A stretch of 64,000 bases of DNA from Cornus controversa. Its lineage: Eukaryota; Streptophyta; Magnoliopsida; Cornales; Cornaceae. Position 1 is the stretch's first letter. Every line of letters begins with the position of its first letter. A program made the position numbers and the translations under genes. Positions 3,014 through 33,959 of this stretch are shown in pieces. Under the pieces are notes generated by a model. The model searched no databases, was not told the DNA's origin, and saw only the letters and a list, made by a program, of their open reading frames with translations. Location: positions 90,088,533 through 90,152,532 of the forward strand of contig CM048845.1 of the NCBI GenBank assembly GCA_026545225.1. Reading direction: 5' to 3'.

Positions 3014-6000
3014 GTATCAAGTAAAATTGATAAAAGAGATTATTGTTCCAACAGTGTTGTTAGAGTTAAAAAGGAAGAGCATGGTCACAAGTGACTACTT
3101 GGTTGGGATGAATCATCACCTAAATGAAATGATGAGATTATTAAATATCATCTCCAATGAAGTACAAATTGTTGGTATCCATGGCGTGGGTGGTATTGGC
3201 AAGACAACCATTGCCAAGTTCATCTACAACAAACTCTTTGAGAGCTTTGAGTGTCATAGCTTCCTTGCAGATATTCAAGAAACAGCGCAACAATGCAATG
3301 GCCTTGTTAATTTGCAGAAAAAGCTTCTCACTGAAACCCTAAAATGGTGTCCTGACATTTCTGATGTTGATAGTGGAGTTGATGTGATTAAGTACATATT
3401 CCTCAGAAAGAAAGTTCTTGTTGTTCTTGACGATGTGACTGAAAGCTCTCAATTTGCTATGCTTGTTGGAAAGCGTGACTGGTTTGGTTCAGGTAGTAGG
3501 ATCATAGTTACAACCAAAGACAGAAATATTTTAAATGATCTTAAAGTGGATGCGACTTATGAACCTCCATTTATGAATTCTCTGCAATCTCTTCAACTTT
3601 TCAGCGTGCATGCCTTTAGAAGGTATTTTCCTTCAAAAGACTATGTTAGTATCTCTAGAGAGGTTGCTTCTACTGCTGCGGGAGTTCCTCTAGTTCTTGA
3701 GGTCATGGGTTCGTTTCTATCTGACAAAGAGAAAGTGGTATGGGAGGATACATTGAAGATGTTGAAAAAAATATCTGATGATGAAGTAGACAGAAAGTTG
3801 AGGGTAATTTATGAAACATTAACTTATGCCCAACGACAGATATTTCTTGATATTGCATGTCTTTTCACTGGGATGGATAAAGCAACAGTATTTTACTTGT
3901 GGGATGATTGTGGCTATCATCCAGAAAAGGAATTTAATGTCCTTTGTCTTATGTCTCTTGTAAAAGTGGGAGATGCTAATGAGCTGAGGATGCATAATCA
4001 GTTTACAACTCTTGGTAGGAAGATCGTTTGTGAAGAAAAGATTCTCGGAAATCATAGTAGGTTGTGGGATCACGATGATGCCTTGGACATATTGGAGGGA
4101 CGGAGGGTAAGATTTGAGCGCACTGAATTTCATACCCCTTTTTTAGTTAAATGTAGTAGGTTGTGAAATCTTGTCATATTATATTGTTTACTTATTTTTT
4201 CAATTGGCAGGGAACAAAAATGGTTGAAGCTTTAAGTCTTTGCTTTGAATTGGGTTCTGAAAAGAAGCCTTGCTTTACAAGTAAGGAGTTCATGAAATTA
4301 GTATCTCTAAGGTATCTCCAAACTGATGGCATAGACCTTGTTGGTGATTTTAATAATCTTTTTCCCTATTTAAGATGGCTTAGTTGGCGTGGTTGCCCTC
4401 CGCATTTTAAACCAAACAATTTTCATTTGAAAAATCTAGTCATTCTTGATCTATCAGATAGCGGCATCACAGAATACTGGGGGGGTTGGAATCAAATCAA
4501 GGTTTTGTGTAATATCTCTACTTTTGTTTTGTTCCTTTCAGTCATATACTTGTTTAAAATTAATCTTTTTCTGTTATTTATTTATTTTAACAGATGGCAA
4601 ATAGGTTGAAAGTTCTACAACTATCTAATTGTGCTTTAAGGAGAACTCCAGACTTTTCATCATATGCAACTCTAGAGATATTGATTCTTCAACGGTGTAA
4701 AAGTTTGGTCGAAGTTGATCAATCCATTGGTAATCTGAAGAATTTAAAAGTGCTTGACATTTCATACGCTGATATAAGGAATTTACCTGACGAAATTTGG
4801 ATATTGGAGAAGATGGAAGTGATGGATTTCACACATTGTAGCTATTTGAAGGGCCACATTCCTTGTAATATGGGGAGTTTAACATCTTTGAGATTCTTGA
4901 GCTTTTATGATACCAAAATTCAAAGCCTACCAACGAGCATTTCGAAGCTCTCTTGCCTCCAAACTCTTAAATTAGGAGATTGCACAGAGCTTCAAGCATT
5001 GCCACAACTTCCGTCAAGTCTAAGGAGCCTGGATGTAGCTTTGACCTCGGACCCCCCAGTAGACAGGTATGGAATTTATATCAAATATGGTTTTTGGAAG
5101 AGGGACTTTTCTTGATTGCTTCTTGTTATTCCTTTGTTTCTATATATCAATTCAGGTTGTGGTTGGAGGAGTTAAATGAAATTTACAAAGCATCAGATAT
5201 CAATATCATGATAAGTACTATCAATATTATCTCCTAATAAGAAAGTTGAAATGGTTATTTACATGAAGTCAACGACTAAACTGTTAATTCTCTCGATACT
5301 CTGTTTCATAAACCAGTTTTGTCGTTTTTGAGTTTTGACCTCGAACCCACGTGTCCGAGGTGGGATATTGATAATGATAAAAATGAGGCTCAATCAAACT
5401 ATCTGATGCTACTTAAGCAGTTAAGAGAGACATTATTTGAAGCCTATTTACAGTTATCAGAAGTCTATAAAGTTGGTTATCTGGTTTAGACTAATTGAAA
5501 TATATAAGATTGGTTATTTGGAATCTAGGAAATTTGAAATATTCTAAACCCAAGGTTGATTAATGGACCCTAGATAATTAGACTGTTCCTTGCCTAAAAA
5601 GGTTGATTTAGCATATTCAAGGCTAAAATTGTTAGGTATCTGAAACCTGAGAAATTTAGACTTTTCAAAGTCTAAGAAGTATAGTTATTTACAACTTTGG
5701 AAATTTAGACTATTCCAAGCTAAAAGAGTGATTATGTTTGTCGAGAAATTTTTTTTTTTTTAATGAGGATGAAGCATGATTCTTAGTCTGCTTAATTTCT
5801 TTTATTTTTATAGGTTTCCTGAAAAACGTAAAAAAGGATTGGACATAAGGCTACAAGAAGCAAGTGGTGGTGGTGTTGAGGGAGAGAAGAAGAGGAAGAC
5901 GGAGGAAAGCTACAAGGGAGTTAAAAATACACAGTGGGGGACGTATGCAGCGAAGATTCGAGACCCCTGGCAAAAGCTCCGCGTGTTGTTCAGGGCAGTG

Positions 6001-6327
6001 AATGCATTCCGAGGAGCCAAATACTACGCAGATAAGCACCAAGAGTGGGATTCGTCTTACTATGCAGATAAGCAGAGCTCCCAGCACCAAGAGAGGGATT
6101 CATCTTACTATGCTGATAAGCAGAGCTCACATCACCAAGAGAGGGATTTGTCTTATTATACCGAGAAGCAGAGCTCACAGCACCAGGAGAGGGATCAGAA
6201 AGCAAAGAGTGAAAGCTCTTCTTTTACCTCAGACATTCGAGACCCCTGGAAAAAGCTCCGCTTGTTGTTCAAGGCTGTGAATGCATTCAAAGGAGCCAAA
6301 CCGAAGCTCAAATTCCCATTGTCCTGA
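3014..6327 (+). CDS. NL-A: NB-ARC-LRR protein (TNL without a usable TIR) with repeat-bearing C-terminal tail
   Basis: Exons by splice sites and frame: 3014-4106 (NB-ARC), 4211-4501, 4594-5066 (LRR), 5814-6327 (tail). All join in frame. The first in-frame ATG in the NB exon that keeps the whole switch domain is at 3081, giving about 767 aa. Motifs in that numbering: P-loop GVGGIGKT (35-42), Walker B VLVVLDDV, RNBS-B GSRIIVTT, GLPL variant GVPLV, FLDIACLF, and MHN (304-306) instead of MHD. The second LRR exon is 473 bp against 1151 bp in gene C: 226 codons are missing without breaking frame. Exon 5 encodes a tail of about 170 residues instead of the usual 31-33 (see separate entry). The TIR exon upstream is broken, so this is either an NL-type receptor/helper-like protein or a late-stage pseudogene still open over 2.3 kb of coding sequence. 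Confidence 0.7.
5814..6327 (+). repeat. C-terminal tail exon of NL-A with internal amino-acid repeats
   Basis: This exon begins RFPEKRKKGLDIRLQ, which aligns with the start of the ordinary fifth exon of genes C and F (RYWTDLREKKLNVRL), then diverges into a Lys/Glu-rich linker. Two 22-codon blocks of near-identical sequence, 5956-6021 and 6235-6300, both start IRDPW and contain K-L-R-x-L-F-x-A-V-N-A-F. Between them (6022-6201) are four tandem units: 36 bp, then 48, 48 and 48 bp, encoding YYADKQSSQHQERDSS-like repeats. All units are multiples of three. The last residues and stop (KFPLS then TGA) are read from NB-ARC-derived sequence in a foreign frame. Function unknown. Confidence 0.8.
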
Positions 6328-8770
6328 GATTTCTGATGTTGATTGTGGAGTTGATGTGATTAGGTACATATTTCTCAGAAAGAAAGTTCTTGTTGTTCTT
6401 GACAAACTGACTGAAAGCTCTCAATTTGCTATGCTTGTTGGAAAGCGTGACTGGTGGCTTGGTTTAGGAAGTGGGATCATAGTTACAACCAAAGACAAAT
6501 ATTTTAAATGATCTTAAAGTGAATGCGACTTATGAACCTCCATTTATGAATTCTCTGCAATCTCTTCAACTTTTCATCATGCATTCCTTTAGAAGGTATT
6601 TTCCTTGAAAAGACTATGTTAGTATCTCTAGAGGGGTTGCTTCTACTGCTGTGGGGATTCCTCTAGCTCTTGATGTCATGGGCTCGTTTCTATCTGACAA
6701 GGAGAAAGTGGCATGGGAGGCTACATTGAAGAAATTGAAAAAAAAAAAATCTGATGGTGAAGTTGACAGAAAGGTGTGGGTATGAAACATTAACTTATGC
6801 CCTACGACAGATATTTCTCGATATTGCATGTCTTTTTGCTGGGATGGATAAAGCAACAGTTTTTTTTTTCCAGAAAAGGAATTTAATGTCCTTTGTCTGA
6901 TGTAAAAGTAGGAGATGGTAATGAGCTGAGGATGCGTGATTAGTTTAGAACTCCCAGTAGGAAAATCGCTTATGAAGAAAAGATTCTCGGAAATCGTAGT
7001 AGGTTGTGGGACTACGAGTATGCCTTGGACATATTGGAGGGATGGAGGGTAAGATTTGAGCGCTCTAAATTTCCTACCCCCTTTTCAGTTAAATGTAGTA
7101 GGCTGTGAAATCTGTCATATTATATTGTTTACTCCTTTTTTTTTTTTTCTATTGGCAGGCAACGGAAAAGGCTGAAGGCCCAAGTCTTTGCTTTGAATTG
7201 GGTTCTGAAAAGAAGCCTCGCTTTACAAGGAGTTCGTGAAACTAGTATCTGTAAGGTATCTCCAAGCTGATGGCATAGACCTTGTTGGGGATTTTGATCA
7301 TCTTTTTCCCTGTTTAGGAGTTCGTGAAACTATTATCTGTAAGGTACCTCCAAGCTGATGGCATAGACCTTATTGGGGATTTTGATAATCTTTTTCCCTG
7401 TTTAAGATGGCTTAGTTGGCCTGGTTGCCCTCTGCATTTTAATCCAAACAATTTTCATTTGAAAAATCTAGTCATTCTTGATCTATCAGATAGCGGTATC
7501 AACGAAGACTGAGGGGGCTGGAATCAAATCAAGGTTCTGTATAATATCTCTACTTTTGTTTTATTCTATTCAGTCATATACTAGTTTAAAATTAATCTTT
7601 TCCTGTTATTTATTTATTTTTAACAGATGGCAAATAGGTTGAAATTTCTACAACTGGCTAATTGTGCTTTAAGAAGAACTCCAGACTTTTCATCATATGC
7701 AACTCTAGAGATATTGATTCTTTGATGCTGTAAAAGTTTGGTCGAGATTGACCAATCCATCGGTAATCTGAAGACTTCAAAAGTTCTGGACATTTCACAT
7801 GTTGGTATAAGGAAACTACCTGATGAATTCTGGATGTTCGAGAAGTTGGAAGTGGTGGATTTCACATGTAGTTATTTGAAGGACATTCCTAGTAATATGG
7901 GGAGTCTATCATCTTTTAGATTCTTGAGCTTTCATGATACTAAAATTCAAATCCTACCAGTGATCATTTGGGAGTTGTCTTGCCTCCACACCTTTAATTT
8001 GGGAGGCTGTACAGAGCTTCAATCTCAACCAGAGCGTGTCAAGTTTAAGGAGTCTTGATGTAACTTGTATTACTCATCTTTCAAATTTGGTTAATTTACT
8101 GGAATTATACTTTATTGGGGCTTGTGAGCATATGGAGATTCCTAGAGATATTGGGAAATTATCCAAATCGGAGAAATTGACCTTGGATTGTACCAACATT
8201 AAGACCCTTCCAGAAGACATTGGTGATCTTTCTCAGCTGAAGGTGCTCGACATAAGATTCTGTCACAATCTTCAATGTATATCCAGGTTACCCTCAACTC
8301 TGTTTGAGTTCTGTGTTGTAAGTAAATCACTAGAACAATTGGCGGGTCTGCCAGATTTGAAAATTTTGTTGAAATTGTCACTTAAATGTTGCATTAAGCT
8401 GGCAGCGGTTCAAGGGCGTGGAAATATAAAATCATTGACAAGGCTGGACGTATATGCGTGCAATTTACTAGGTAACATTTGTCTGCTCGAATGTTTACCA
8501 TCTTTGGAGATGAGTGGGTGCAAAAACCTTGAGAAAGGGACATATCTATCAAACCTAAGGAAGTTAGAAATATTATCTATTACTAATTGTCTAGAACTCT
8601 ATGAGATCCGAGGATTGGACAAATTGACGTCATTGCAATATTTGGATTTGCTTGGTTGCAACTTGAAAGAACTTACGTGAGATTGAGGGCCTTGAAAGAG
8701 TGAAGCTACAGCAGAAGCATTGTGGGAACAATGTAACATGGAACAAGCTACAGCAGAGGCATAGGTAGCT
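6321..8770 (+). pseudogene. TNL relic B (NB-ARC half, LRR exons, remnant of last exon)
   Basis: Starts mid-NB-ARC (PEISDVDCGVDVIRYIFLRKKVLVVLD) directly against the tail exon of NL-A and has no TIR, P-loop or promoter. NB part 6321-7048 has several frameshifts (near 6490, 6730, 6780, 6860), a deleted segment around the RNBS-D/MHD region, and a donor at 7049. The exon-3 relic 7159-7533 has a stop in place of Trp (EDW to ED-stop) and an internal tandem duplication. The exon-4 relic starts at 7627, has a stop near 7725 and a small indel near 8040, and leaves two LRR reading frames (7738-8058, 8036-8680). At 8690-8770 it runs into sequence resembling the end of the last exon (GAAGCTACAGCAGAAGCATTG). 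The 3' flank (8820-8880) resembles the 3' flank of gene F. Confidence 0.85.
7228..7403 (+). repeat. 88-bp tandem duplication within exon-3 relic
   Basis: Two copies, 7228-7315 and 7316-7403, each starting AGGAGTTCGTGAAACTA and ending TTTTTCCCTGTTT, differ at only a few positions. 88 is not a multiple of three, so the duplication itself breaks the LRR frame. It looks recent relative to the rest of the relic. Confidence 0.85.
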
Positions 8771-14300: not shown

Positions 14301-16084
14301 ACATTTCATGTGCTGAAATAACGAAGTTACCTGATGAAATTTGGATGTTGGAGAATCTGGAAGTGATGGATGCCTCACATTGTCATTATTTGAAGGGGGA
14401 TATTCCTTGTAATATCGGGAATCTGTCATGTTTGAGGTTCTTGAGCTTTTATGGTTCCAAAATTCAAAGCCTACCAAGGAGCATTTTGGGGCTCACTCGA
14501 CTCCAAACCCTCAACATTGGAGGCTGCACAGAGCTTCAATCGCAGCCAGGGCTTCCCTCAAGTATAAGGATTCTGAATGTCACTTATATTCCTGACCTTA
14601 CAAATCTGGTTAATTTACAGGAAGTACAATTGTCTGAGTGCCAGAATCTTGTGGAGATTCCTAGAGATATTGGGAGATTATCCAAATTGGAGAAACTGAC
14701 CTTGCATCATACCAACATTAGGTCCCTACCCGAAGAGGTTGGTGTCCTTTCTCAGCTGAAGGTGCTTGATGTACGCTTCTGTGACGATCTCGAATGTATA
14801 TTGGGGTTACCCTCAAGTCTAGTTGATTTATCTCTTGCATTTTGTGATTCATTGGAGAGATTGCCGGATCTATCAAATTTGAAAAATTTGTTGAGTTTGT
14901 TGATTAAGAATTGTGATAAGCTAGCAGAGGTTCAAGGGCTTGGAGGATTAGAATCATTGACAAGTTTGTACATATTTGCGTGTGACATGCTAGCTACATT
15001 TGAAAACATGCCTGATTTGTCAAGCTTAAAGAAGTTGGAGATATTATCTATTAATAATTGTTCAGAACTTGACAAGATCAAAGGGCTTGGCGGATTGGAA
15101 TCGCTGAAATATTTGGATTTGCGTGGTTGTGAGAACTTATGTAAGATTGAGGATCTTGAGGCTTTGAAATCTTTGGAGATATTGGACGTGTTAAGGTGCA
15201 CATCATTGGAAACAATACCACATCTGCCAAACACATATATACGACGGTCCAAAGATCAGATCAATACTGCCAATTCACATATGTGCAGGTATGGATTTAT
15301 TTCCAATGTTGCCTTGGATGAGAATAATATTTCCAGTAAACCCCCTCTCTTGTTGAGTTACTGTTTGGTTTTTGCAAAAGGTATTTTTCTTGATTGCTAG
15401 CTTGCTAATATTCTTTCTATATACCTTAGTTTAGGTTATGGTTTGAGTTCATGAAATGTTCAAAACGTCACTTATAATCAGTACTCAAGAGCAAGTTGTA
15501 TCAAAATAATTACTCACAAGAAAGGAGAAATGGTCATTTATTTGAGTAACCAAACTAGCTACTACCCTTTGGAGGATCTCTCAAATGACCATGGGTCATA
15601 GGAGCATGTTAATTCTCTTGTTGCTCTCTGGTTTTTTCATGTCTGGCTTTTAACCTTAACCCCACACGTGAGAAATGAAATGCCGGTCGCGATAAAAATG
15701 AGTTTCAATCCTAAGCCAATAATTAGACTGTTCCAAGCCAATTTTGGTGGTTATCAGAAACCAAAAGTTAAACCATTTTAAGGCCATGCGGTTGTACGTC
15801 TGAAATTGAATGTTTATGTGAAACCTATGAAATTTAGACTGTTCAAAGGCTAAAAGGTTTGTTATGTTTGATGTCATGATGTGTTATTTTGTTTTTCTTC
15901 TTCTTTTTTGGTTTAATTAAAGTAATCGAGTTTGAGGTGTGATATGCAGCCTAACTAATTTACTTTTTACCTTTATATTTATAGATATTGGACAGATTTG
16001 AGAGAGAAAAAATTGAACGTGCGGCTACCGGTGTTAAGTGGATATAGCAATGACGCTACACAAGAAGCATTGTTGAAGGCTTGA
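11364..16084 (+). CDS. TNL-C: intact TIR-NB-ARC-LRR immune receptor
   Basis: Exons 11364-11950, 12529-13621, 13733-14023, 14138-15288, 15985-16084; all GT-AG and in frame, about 1073 aa. The start at 11364 (MERKRQ) is chosen because the upstream extension of the same frame has no ATG and coincides with the shared 5'UTR block. TIR about 46-180 (GEYEVFLSFRG; SSKWCLREL with the Glu, about residue 122, that in L6/RPP1-type TIRs is catalytic for NADase activity). NB-ARC has P-loop GMCGIGKT (253-260), VLVVLDDV, GSRIIVTT, GLPLALEVIG, FLDIACLF and MHD (about 522-524). LRR about 561-1040 with repeated LxxLxxLxLxxC units; basic C-terminal tail ending ATQEALLKA. Predicted intracellular pathogen sensor signalling through EDS1. 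Nothing is broken. Confidence 0.93.
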
Positions 16085-18023: not shown

Positions 18024-21000
18024 ATGGAGCCGCCGTCGCTGCCGCCGAAATGGGGGAAAAATAAAGAGTCCCGGCCGGCGATGGAGACGCTGCCGCAGCC
18101 GCCGCCCCTGCCGAGATGGGGGAAAAATAAAGAGTCCCGGCCACTGCGGCCGAAATGGGGCGCGATTCAAAATAAGATCCTTGAAATTGGCAATTTTGGA
18201 GAATCCCGAAAACATGAGATCAGAATTATTGATTCGCACCCTAGAATTACTGGTACAATTACTGATTCGCACTCTCCATCATCGCCACCTTCAGCAGGGG
18301 AATACGAAGTATTCTTGAGTTTCAAAAGTCCAGACATTCGCCACTCTTTCACTGATTACCTGTACAACTATCTCAAACGTGTAGGAGTTCGCACCTTTCG
18401 AGACGAGAACAAGAACGAGCTTTGTGAAGGAGATGAGATTGTCCCGAAACTACTCAATGCAATCAAGGAGTCGAAGATCTCAATCCCAATCTTCTCCAAG
18501 AACTATGCTTCCAGTAAATGGTGCCTCCAAGAACTCGCCCATATGGTGGAGTGCAGGAGAGCTACGAGACAATTGATTTTGCCCATCTTCTACGACGTTG
18601 ATCCCTCTGATGTGAAGCATCAAACTGGGAGTTATGAAGACGCCTTCTGCAAGCACCATAGCTGTTTTGGCGAAACCACCATTGAGAAATGGAAGGCGGC
18701 ACTGACAGAGGTTGGAGCACTCGATGGTTGGGAAATGAAGCAAAAAAATCAAGGGTATGATAATTCGTTCATGCTAATAATCCCATTATTTATTTTTTTG
18801 TAAGTGCTAATAATCCCATTATTTGTAGTATAGAAACTTCATTGTAGATAGTCTTGGAATTTAAGTAATCAAAAGCAATATGCGAGAAGGTTCAGGACCT
18901 CAGGTAATGGGAGGGATAAATTAAAGATCAAATTAGACGTACAGATACAAAAATATAACAAGAATTTTAGGATGATTATTAGTTTGGTGAGTTAGCTAGT
19001 CCCTAAAATAATTTATAACTGTCTCAAAAGATCAATCAGTCTATTTAGAGACCCTTGGTTTCAAGGTTGTCTTCTGTCTCAAAAGTTCTCTCATACAACA
19101 CTCAGCTTGTCTTAGTGTCCTCATTTCCAATGGTAGTTGGAACTGGTCCGTTCCATCTGATCCAAGGTTACTGCCTTTAAGTACTTTTCTTCACAGTATC
19201 TCCCCTACTGACAGAATGGATAAATGGCTTTGGGATAAGGGTGAATTCAGTTTCAAAATGGGCTGGGACAAATGCAGAACTTTTTACTCTCCTGTTCATT
19301 GGCGTTATCTTTGTTGGAGTGGCGGCAGGCCCAGATGCTCAGTCACCAGCTGCATAGTGTTATTAAATTAGATCCTCAGCTTTTGTAATTTGCAGAGAAG
19401 GGGCATCCATTCTGTTTCGTTCTGTGCCAACTGTGAGGCTGCCGTAGAGGACACTTATCATCTCTTCCTTTCTTGTTGTTATGCTTCAACTGTTTGGTCT
19501 TGGTTCAGTCATCATTTTAACTGGTCTTGGCCCTTTTCTGGTGTTAATTGCAAGCTTGTTGATGTTGTGGTTTGGTTTGTTCAAAATGTCAAATCAAAGA
19601 TCCAAATGAATGGTTTTTTCTGCTGTTATTTGGGGATATGGCAAGAAAGGAATGCCAGACTTCACAATGGAATTAAGAGAGATCACTCTGAGCATGCTAA
19701 GACTCTTTGCTTCAACACTCTTGATGCTGCATCAACTTCAGACCATGCTGTTTAGCCTATTTCATCCTAGGATTATTTTGATCATTTTTCACTCCTATTG
19801 GAAATGGATGTATTCATCTTTGTTCTTTCTGTTCTTCTAGGAGAGTATGCTCTCCTTTTTCATTTTACTGATTTGTCATATCTTTTGCAATGAAATACCA
19901 ACCCTAATTACGAAAATAATAATAATAATTTATAACTGTGATTTAATTCAAAATATTTACAATAATAATAATCGCATAAAATAAAAACGAAAAAGTATAA
20001 AAATCTTCATCCTTTTCCTGTTAGACATTAATTATTTGTTATGTTCACATCAATCAGGTATCAAGGAAGACTAATAAAAGAGAACATCGTTATAATTATG
20101 CTGATCATTAACTAAATGAAGTAGAAGTCATCATTTTTCCGCCCTATTTTTTACTATAATCTCCTTCTATGCACTAATTATTGTTCTGTTTTTTGGCTTA
20201 CATCAATCAGGTATAAACAAAAATTAATAAAAGAGATGATTGTTCCAGCGGTGTTGTTAGAGTTAAAAAGGCAGAGCATGCATGCACCTGAATACTTTGT
20301 TGGGATGGATCATCATCTAGAAGAAATGATGAGATTATTAAATGTTGGCTCCAGTGGAGTACAAATTGTTGGTATCTCTGGCATCGGTGGTATTGGCAAG
20401 ACAACTATTGCCAGGTTTATTTTTCAAAAACTTTTTAAGGGATTTGAATGTCATAGCTTCCTTGCAGATATTCGAGAAACAGCGCAGCAGTGCAATGGTC
20501 TTGTTGATTTGCAGATAAAGCTTCTCACTGACACCCTAAAATGGTGTCCTGACATTTCTGATGTCGAATGTGGAATGAATGTTATTAAACACGTATTTCG
20601 CGAAAAGAAAGTTCTTCTTGTTCTTGATGATGTGATTGAAAGCTCTCAATTTTATTGGCTTGTCGGAAAGCATGACTGGTTTGGTTCAGGAAGTAGGATC
20701 ATAGTTACAAGTAAAGACAGAAATGTTTTAGATGATATTAAAGTGGATGCGACTTATGAACCTCTATGTATGAATTCTGTCCAATCTCTTCAACTTTTCA
20801 GTATTCATGCATTTAGAAGGATGTTTCCTCCGGAAAACTATGTTAGTATCTCTAGAGAGGTTGCATCTAATGTTGCAGGGCTTCCTCTATGTCTTGAGGT
20901 CATCGGTTCATTTCTGTTTGACAAAGAGAAAGTGATATGGAAGGATACATTGGAGAAGCTGAAGAAAATATCAAATGATGAAGTTGAGAGAAAGTTGAGG

Positions 21001-32999: not shown

Positions 33000-33575
33000 C
33001 GTAGTTGGGCTGGTTCCCCGTAGGGGCTGTGTCACTGTAGGGCTAGCTGTGCGCAGGGCTGTGTCCCCGTAGGGCTGTGCTGCCATAGGACTATTTTAAC
33101 AATGTTCTCGAAATTCATCTATCCCGCATTTTTCATTAAAGGCCCTCCTTGGAGGTGTATCACCGTAGGGTTGTGCCAACGTAGGGCTATTTAACAATGT
33201 TCTCAAAATTTATCCATTCTGACTTTTTTATTAAAGGCCCTCATTGGAGGTGTATCCCCGTAGGGTTGTGCCTGCGTAGAGCTATTTTAACAATGTTTTC
33301 AGAATTCATCTATCCTGTTTTTTTCATTAAAGGCCCTCCTAGGAGGTGTATTCCCGTAGGGTTGTGCCCATGTAGGGCTATTTTAACAATATTCTCAGAA
33401 TTCATTCATCTCATCTTTTTCAATAAAGGCCCTCCTTGGAGGTGTATTCCCGTAGGGTTGTGCCCACGTAGGGTTATTTTAACAATGTTTTCAGAATTTA
33501 TCCGTCCCATCTTTTTCATTAAAGGCCATCCTTGGAGGTGTATCCCTATAGGGTCGTGTCCCCGTAGGACTATTT
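33000..33575. repeat. About 93-bp tandem array
   Basis: Five to six copies of a unit containing CCCGTAGGGTTGTGCC, TTTTAACAATGTTCTCAGAA and TTTTTCATTAAAGGCCCTCC. The period is a multiple of three, so a 130-residue open frame (33197-33589, four 31-residue repeats) exists by construction and is not evidence of a gene. Confidence 0.85.
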
Positions 33576-33959
33576 ACTTTTTATTTTAATTATAACAACA
33601 TATTTTGAAACAAAAATGACTGTTATTGATATTTTAGTAACAAATAGAGATTTATTCGAGCAAAAATCTCGGCGCTATCGTCCTAAGGCTCGATATTAAA
33701 TTGATTTTCAGCTAGAATTATTAAAGTAAATGCAACTTTTAAAAGAAAATCTTACTGGTGGCACTTCCTCAGATGCTCAACATTCTAAGGATGGGCCAAC
33801 TGCCTCCCTTCTAATGTCTCTAGTCAATATGCCCCCTGCCTCCTCTAAGTCCACCAGAGTTATTTTTTCGAGTGTTGTCATCTTTACCATCCCCATCCCA
33901 TTGGCGGTTCCATGTTCCACTCTCATCTCCGGCCACATATCTTTGTAGTTGGCCCCTAT

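Follow-up and report, generated by a model that had tools for sequence, protein, structure and literature searches.

The receptor gene NL-A of Cornus controversa ends in a long C-terminal tail which, from its sequence, very probably derives from an AP2/ERF transcription-factor domain that was integrated into the receptor and survives as a rearranged remnant. NL-A belongs to a cluster of nucleotide-binding leucine-rich repeat receptor (NLR) genes of the TIR type (TNL genes) contained in the 64,000-nucleotide stretch of contig CM048845.1 analysed here (the window, C1:90088533-90152532), and comparisons were extended to the whole 772 Mb assembly. Three paralogous receptors, NL-B, A2 and NL-C, also carry ERF remains; the tails of NL-A, NL-B and NL-C are called tails A, B and C below.

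The tail is encoded by the last exon of NL-A, at 5814-6327 (plus strand, as are the other parts of NL-A and the downstream pseudogene described below). This exon is open for 170 codons plus a stop and adds 171 residues when the split Arg codon is counted, compared with 33 residues (15985-16084) and 31 residues (from 42325) in the last exons of two sister genes in the window, so that the first-pass annotation was right to single out its length. Joining it to the exon at 4594-5066 keeps the frame through a phase-2 splice across the 5066/5814 junction (donor GACAG/GTATGG, acceptor TTTTTATAG/G), and the earlier claim that frame and splice phase are preserved therefore holds at the DNA level. The repeat layout had likewise been read correctly. 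Two 22-residue blocks, at 5956-6021 and 6235-6300, agree at 18 of 22 positions, and four YYADK/YYTEK units of 12, 16, 16 and 16 residues begin at 6022, 6058, 6106 and 6154; TRF reports a 48-bp array of 3.4 copies (88% matches, score 245). The start of the exon (5814-5868, RFPEKRKKGLDIRLQEASG) resembles the short ordinary last exon of one sister TNL. The likeness to a normal last exon that the annotation had proposed for this edge stands for the first sister, where the alignment of REKKLNVRLPVLSG with RKKGLDIRLQEASG was equalled by 1 of 5000 shuffles of the protein and by 92 of 2000 of the DNA, but not for the second, whose last exon gave no alignment beyond chance (3179 of 5000 protein shuffles scored as high).

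Beyond this edge, the parts of the tail can be matched to parts of ERF proteins. A pre-AP2 basic linker and the N-terminal half of the AP2 domain, apparently ERF-derived (5875-5991, VEGEKKRKTEESYKGVKNTQWGTYAAKIRDPWQKLRVLF; 36.3 bits in an ERF profile), come first. Here the linker and SYKGVKNTQWGTYAAKIRDPWQKLRVLF, corresponding to strands 1-2 and the start of strand 3, are kept, and the alignment then continues at AVNAFRGAK: 14 residues matching GTFNTAEEAAMAYD are absent immediately before the C-terminal edge of the AP2 domain at 5992-6021, where RAVNAFRGAK corresponds to KAAIDFRGPK of L057, an ERF locus at C1:114.94 Mb. The YYADK/YYTEK units (6022-6195) match ERF post-AP2 sequence, represented by AEKHSSE in L057 and NYAKKHQES in A2, the DNA agreeing at 89% over 19 bp with the L057 segment and at 87% over 23 bp with NYAKKHQE of A2. 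The Ser-rich spacer that follows (6196-6234) holds the post-AP2 motif DQKAK, found as ATDQKAKK in L057 and A2 and as STDQKAK in NL-C. The last part (6235-6327), also aligned to ERFs, consists of the second copy of the 22-residue block (IRDPWKKLRLLFKAVNAFKGAK), with the same 14-residue deletion as the first but running on into the AP2 end PKLKFPLS, and the stop codon, which is placed at the junction to the NB fragment of a downstream TNL pseudogene. At the DNA level, NL-A thus holds a non-NLR domain of identifiable origin in frame within the same gene.

Database and genome searches point the same way. Tail A returned 63 genome matches, three of which are receptor tails; 29 of the 60 others were opened, and all 29 are AP2/ERF by motif. 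With tail C there were 18 matches, four of them receptor tails, and the five opened among the remaining 14 are all ERFs, the top non-receptor match being L057 (genome-wide E=1.1e-4). Genes on C2 and C4 were matched in adjoining halves by the tail A and tail C queries. The search scores only the best candidates and the cluster was read in part, and further tails may exist. Because a first profile, built from ERFs found by tail A, was partly circular, we scored the tails against a profile of four ERFs drawn from the tail C matches; tail C lacks the N-terminal half of AP2, and two of the four ERFs are also tail A matches. Tails A, B and C reached 29.4, 23.6 and 18.5 bits, respectively, and none of 2000 shuffles of each scored as high, which argues for common ancestry with AP2 domains in these three and less strongly for the repeats of A2. 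The top three places in a PDB sequence search went to AP2 domains, those of AtERF1 in two chains and of ERF096; the best E, 0.058 when the whole tail was the query and 0.0053 with the block-1 piece, is weak alone and serves as a lead, antibody and endoglucanase chains coming next at E 0.8-2.2. The same search with a single A2 repeat gave no match.

On present comparisons the best relative of the tail is L057, with DNA matches that reach past AP2 (70% over 173 bp with tail C, 83% over 35 bp with A2, and short pieces with tails A and B). Its AP2 domain is recognised by Pfam with E=6.3e-12, and that of the L025 stretch with 1e-16. An array of ERF matches, which with L057 comes closest to the tail, lies at C2:19.56-20.06 Mb, and in L025, L058 and L060 from this array, as in L059 on C4, AP2 is followed by FPLSDY. 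L057 has both MVSALxxVI and CxxCKIxGCLGCN, which we take to be the N-terminal motifs of ERF group X, and L025, L058, L059 and L060 have the first, an assignment made by motif and not by tree. The donor may accordingly have been a group X member, a group that includes ERF109/RRTF1 and ABR1/ERF111. The tails match L057 and the C2 and C4 genes in the linker before AP2, in the AP2 halves and in the post-AP2 motif; group X ERFs differ from the tails in being free transcription factors with a complete AP2. A group VIII donor, considered by eye from IRDPWKK, was set aside, the linker and post-AP2 sequence fitting the L057/C2 type better.

Judged by sequence, the tails of NL-B, A2 and NL-C are also of AP2/ERF origin. 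None of the four tails has an intact AP2, and they differ in which parts are missing and which are repeated (in NL-A, the 22-residue block and the 48-bp unit). NL-B carries a near-copy of tail A at C1:89971943-89972362, matched in two pieces of 84 and 85%; its TIR, NB and LRR exons are open, its ordinary last donor is displaced by a fragment resembling a TIR exon, and in-phase GT sites are present. At C1:89953000 plus about 18230-18350, the LRR exon of NL-B passes at its 3' end into a fragment that by eye resembles the beginning of a TIR exon (EAGPSKRRIKSE). A2, at about C1:90062.5-90068.2 kb, shares 99.7% of its NB residues and 100% of LRR exon L1 with NL-A. Its last exon consists of three repeats of about 58 residues followed by a stop, each repeat covering the middle of AP2 with some of the helix (TLITAEEVAWACKATAKL aligned with TFNTAEEAAMAYDKAA…KL), without the N-terminal half. 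NL-C, at about C1 89863-89869 kb, keeps the C-terminal edge of AP2 (ESREAKAKPNFPLS) and a long post-AP2 stretch ending in DDTGTVLGE (SHTGTMVTE in L057); read from the ordinary acceptor, its tail is in the wrong frame. In the NL-C TIR exon (L049, 2511-3539), the TIR is preceded by about eleven repeats of the PPRSAKVEDTKPSL type. Common to all four tails are a similar exon start (QEASG..VEG.KK type) and the post-AP2 DQKAK, from which we infer one integration. No intact TNL-AP2 was seen in the cluster: between C1 89.7 and 90.5 Mb the tail A matches are receptor tails only, 31 of the 60 other matches being unopened.

The distribution of similarity along NL-A suggests how the tails came to differ. 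In the NB region NL-A and NL-B share only 59.5% of residues (75.3% at the DNA level), but from window position 5286 they are about 91% identical through the tail and into the downstream pseudogene (6320-8695; NB/LRR with stops), and the same junction to the pseudogene is found in NL-B. With A2, in contrast, NL-A is 95-100% identical in the compared stretches from 2936 to about 5564, beyond which BLAST finds at the corresponding place just 72% over 112 bp, at 5783-5894. The last intron of NL-A (5067-5813) is accordingly A2-like to about 5564 (95.3%) and NL-B-like from about 5286. An A2-like core with an NL-B-like tail implies an exchange of tails, and receptor cores probably acquired their different tails in the last intron. 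The last intron of A2 (L044, 6380-7534) also contains an AT-rich stretch of about 1.1 kb for which BLAST finds no counterpart in NL-A. The probable history is that a single ERF integration gave rise to all four tails, that the ERF piece presumably began as an integrated bait which let the receptor sense attack on ERFs, and that tails were swapped between receptors, in either direction, by recombination in the last intron.

Several observations weigh against this account. Pfam reported no AP2 in tail A up to E=1, and none up to E=10 in the tails of NL-B and A2 or in a pair of block pieces; these were the sequences scanned, and the Pfam filters drop weak matches. Taken singly, the three A2 repeats were equalled in the ERF profile by 31, 2 and 18 of 2000 shuffles (2 of 2000 when taken together), so that their link to ERFs depends on DNA matches and common flanks, and the start of the A2 exon resembles ordinary last exons at chance level (1729 and 3974 of 5000 shuffles as high). 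The AP2 Trp kept in tails A and B (TQWG) is absent from L057 (RARG), which makes L057 a relative of the donor and leaves it unproven as the donor itself. A genome search with the post-AP2 region of L057 returned L057 and four C2 loci and none of the tails; the post-AP2 link therefore comes from the searches run from tail to ERF and from pairwise DNA comparison. The bait role, finally, is argued by likeness to other NLRs with integrated domains (NLR-IDs). The gathering threshold of Pfam for AP2 (PF00847) is 33.3 bits, which L057 (46) and L025 (61.4) pass and the scanned tails do not; for NL-A, the loss of the central part of the domain is the probable reason. Thus the tail, although by its sequence AP2-derived, is not an AP2 domain under the Pfam rule. 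A DUF6931 match on the A2 tail (E=0.0045) is below the cutoff of that family and was not retained.

Whether the tail is now a relic, a bait or an output domain concerns its present function only. Between NL-A and NL-B, identity is the same in the intron and the tail, at 91.2%, and is 91.4% in the NB part of the downstream pseudogene, so the tail is no more conserved than its neutral flanks. This equality fits a neutral relic, an ERF fusion which has been decaying since its integration and whose open frames are left over from its coding origin, and we regard this as somewhat the likelier present state. In a neutral simulation, a 99-codon ERF segment kept an open frame in 3-30% of cases at 0.4-0.1 substitutions per site, although these figures overstate survival because indels are ignored. 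The disrupted TIR, shortened LRR and neighbouring pseudogene of NL-A fit decay as well. Harder to accommodate is that tails A, B and A2 are all open and in the ERF frame across deletions and duplications. Aligned as DNA, tails A and B show gaps of 62 and 31 bases, neither a multiple of three, with a sum of 93; the protein alignment has a 32-codon gap and a one-codon gap the opposite way. Base-shuffled tails were open at frequencies of 0, 0.00025, 0.00005 and 0.011 (A, B, A2 and C, respectively), but for a sequence that began as coding this is the wrong null, and it was given no weight.

The other reading with some claim on the data is that of a working effector bait, a tail without DNA binding that is selected as a protein-interaction surface in a cluster that diversifies its baits by the duplication and swapping of ERF pieces. 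We consider it a possibility, though a doubtful one. Besides the frame kept across rearrangements, it draws on the nature of the changes: tails A and B differ at 36 nucleotides in 138 codons, giving 22 amino-acid changes and no stop. Under the substitution pattern of the flanks, simulation gave a probability of 0.08-0.09 for no stop and about 0.10 for so few changes, neither significant alone, with a joint probability of 0.012-0.016; dN/dS was 0.45 (NG86), 0.70 (YN00) or 0.71 (ML). The open TIR, NB and LRR exons of NL-B also speak for it. The equal conservation of the flanks stands against it, as do the frameshifted TIR of NL-A, the displaced last donor of NL-B and the out-of-frame tail of NL-C. 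The evidence is therefore mixed. Selection, which the first-pass annotation had offered as one reason for the preserved frame, is only weakly supported, by the joint test and not by conservation, and we do not regard a function as demonstrated. Because its TIR is also frameshifted, the likeliest state of NL-A itself is that of an NLR-ID in decay or of a receptor truncated at its N-terminus, rather than of a working sensor. As to effectors that act on this family, a review (PMC8150971) describes one acting on tomato ERF4 and has in its reference list work on ABR1 as a susceptibility hub, and a table in PMC4759884 lists an AP2 protein together with an effector group.

A more far-reaching version, which we rate as rather unlikely, is that the TNL cluster is a generator of non-DNA-binding ERF 'mosaic' baits, all made from one captured ERF by in-frame deletion, tandem duplication and last-intron recombination on near-identical cores. 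If this were true, recognition surfaces would diversify in the tail instead of in the LRR.

That the AP2 part still binds DNA, as an output domain through which the receptor acts on promoters, is very improbable. The tail retains a basic KKRK stretch, and the positions of R162 and R170 (AtERF100 numbering) are kept in IRDP and KLR. In contrast, Thr (NTQWG) occupies the R152 position, Leu has replaced the Trp of strand 3, which we take to be a DNA contact residue, and the next 14 residues are deleted. AlphaFold, run on the tail alone, predicts helices and no strands, with a mean pLDDT of only 58.5. GCC-box binding by the NL-A remnant has probably been lost, since strand 3 lacks its end, a large part of the helix is missing and several contact residues differ; R162 and R170 are given as contact residues of AtERF100 in PMC7593309. 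Least credible of all is that the tail consists of chance low-complexity repeats or is transposon-derived and its ERF likeness spurious, for although the YYADK part by itself fails to score as AP2 (-0.9 bits) and Pfam offered nothing useful, the 0 of 2000 shuffles for tails A, B and C, the DNA matches to L057 and the 29 of 29 opened tail A matches all speak against it. A transposon origin, named beforehand as a finding that would overturn the annotation, was dropped; no transposon family is among the Pfam matches of the tail.

The rest of NL-A has the canonical NLR core of NB-ARC and LRR, with a TIR that is frameshifted. The TIR exon remnant (1723-2178) is a single open frame in which TIR homology passes from frame 2 to frame 1, with a stop inside, and back to frame 2, the two frameshifts roughly compensating each other. 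Pfam detects TIR with E=3.8e-10 over profile positions 69-138 of 179 only. Because the TIR homology switches frame twice, 'NB-LRR' is an apt label for this gene. The exon for NB-ARC and winged helix (3014-4106, ends approximate and taken from splice motifs) is open, with Pfam matches to NB-ARC (E=3e-27) and WHD_ROQ1 (4.2e-11). The two LRR exons, L1 (4211-4501) and L2 (4594-5066), lie within 4211-5066 and give a match to LRR_14 (E=2.8e-21), and the L2 frame is shorter than those of NL-B, NL-C and the sister at 14-15 kb. Elsewhere in the window, a 96-bp tandem repeat (33060-33575; 5.4 copies, 84% matches) overlaps a 134-codon open frame at 33185-33589. Outside it, at C1:90170.9-90174.3 kb (L055, 934-4252), four tandem stop-free TIR exon matches stand ahead of one NB exon.

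One receptor with a comparable tail is RRS1 of Arabidopsis, a TNL in which an intact C-terminal WRKY acts as a bait and which works with a paired partner receptor. It is cited as an NLR with an integrated WRKY transcription-factor domain (PMC5819176) and differs from NL-A in having WRKY instead of AP2. AP2 itself has been published as an integrated domain in NLRs of wheat and Brachypodium (PMC5819176) and of wheat (PMC7422411), and the remark in the first-pass annotation that no named integrated domain fits the tail does not survive, the tail being in all probability a degenerate AP2/ERF with its flanks. The nearest case is wheat NLR-AP2a (NLR-WRKY/AP2a; Bailey et al. 2018, PMC5819176), which like NL-A has an AP2/ERF piece at the C-terminus of an NLR; it is described as having arisen after duplication of the donor gene, and it replaces another tail in otherwise homoeologous receptors. 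In contrast to it, the AP2 of NL-A is broken, unreported by Pfam, partly repeated and set in a TNL cluster, whereas the majority of wheat integrated domains, defined by domain E-values, are complete (PMC5819176). TNL-class genes of Melaleuca and other Myrtaceae (PMC10720953) resemble NL-A in being of TIR type with an unusual C-terminal domain, but that domain is a jacalin lectin and they have no LRR; AP2 and ERF do not occur in the main text of that paper. PlantRG also records AP2 fusions in Poales, their level being relatively low (PMC13398923). Among the open-licence papers listed by our searches, none describes a TNL with a repeat tail derived from AP2. AP2 as an NLR integrated domain was thus already known; what appears to be new here is a scrambled AP2 below Pfam detection, in a TNL cluster in which four paralogues keep different parts.

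The surveys of integrated domains cited here define them by Pfam hits (PMC10720953, PMC7422411, PMC13398923), and the AP2-derived tail of these four receptors would enter them as an 'unknown tail'. If eroded domains of this kind are common, integrations may be under-counted. The cluster also offers a natural series, in which one kind of captured factor has left four different remains and two near-identical cores bear different tails, and this would make it testable whether baits outlive their original activity by selection or through decay.

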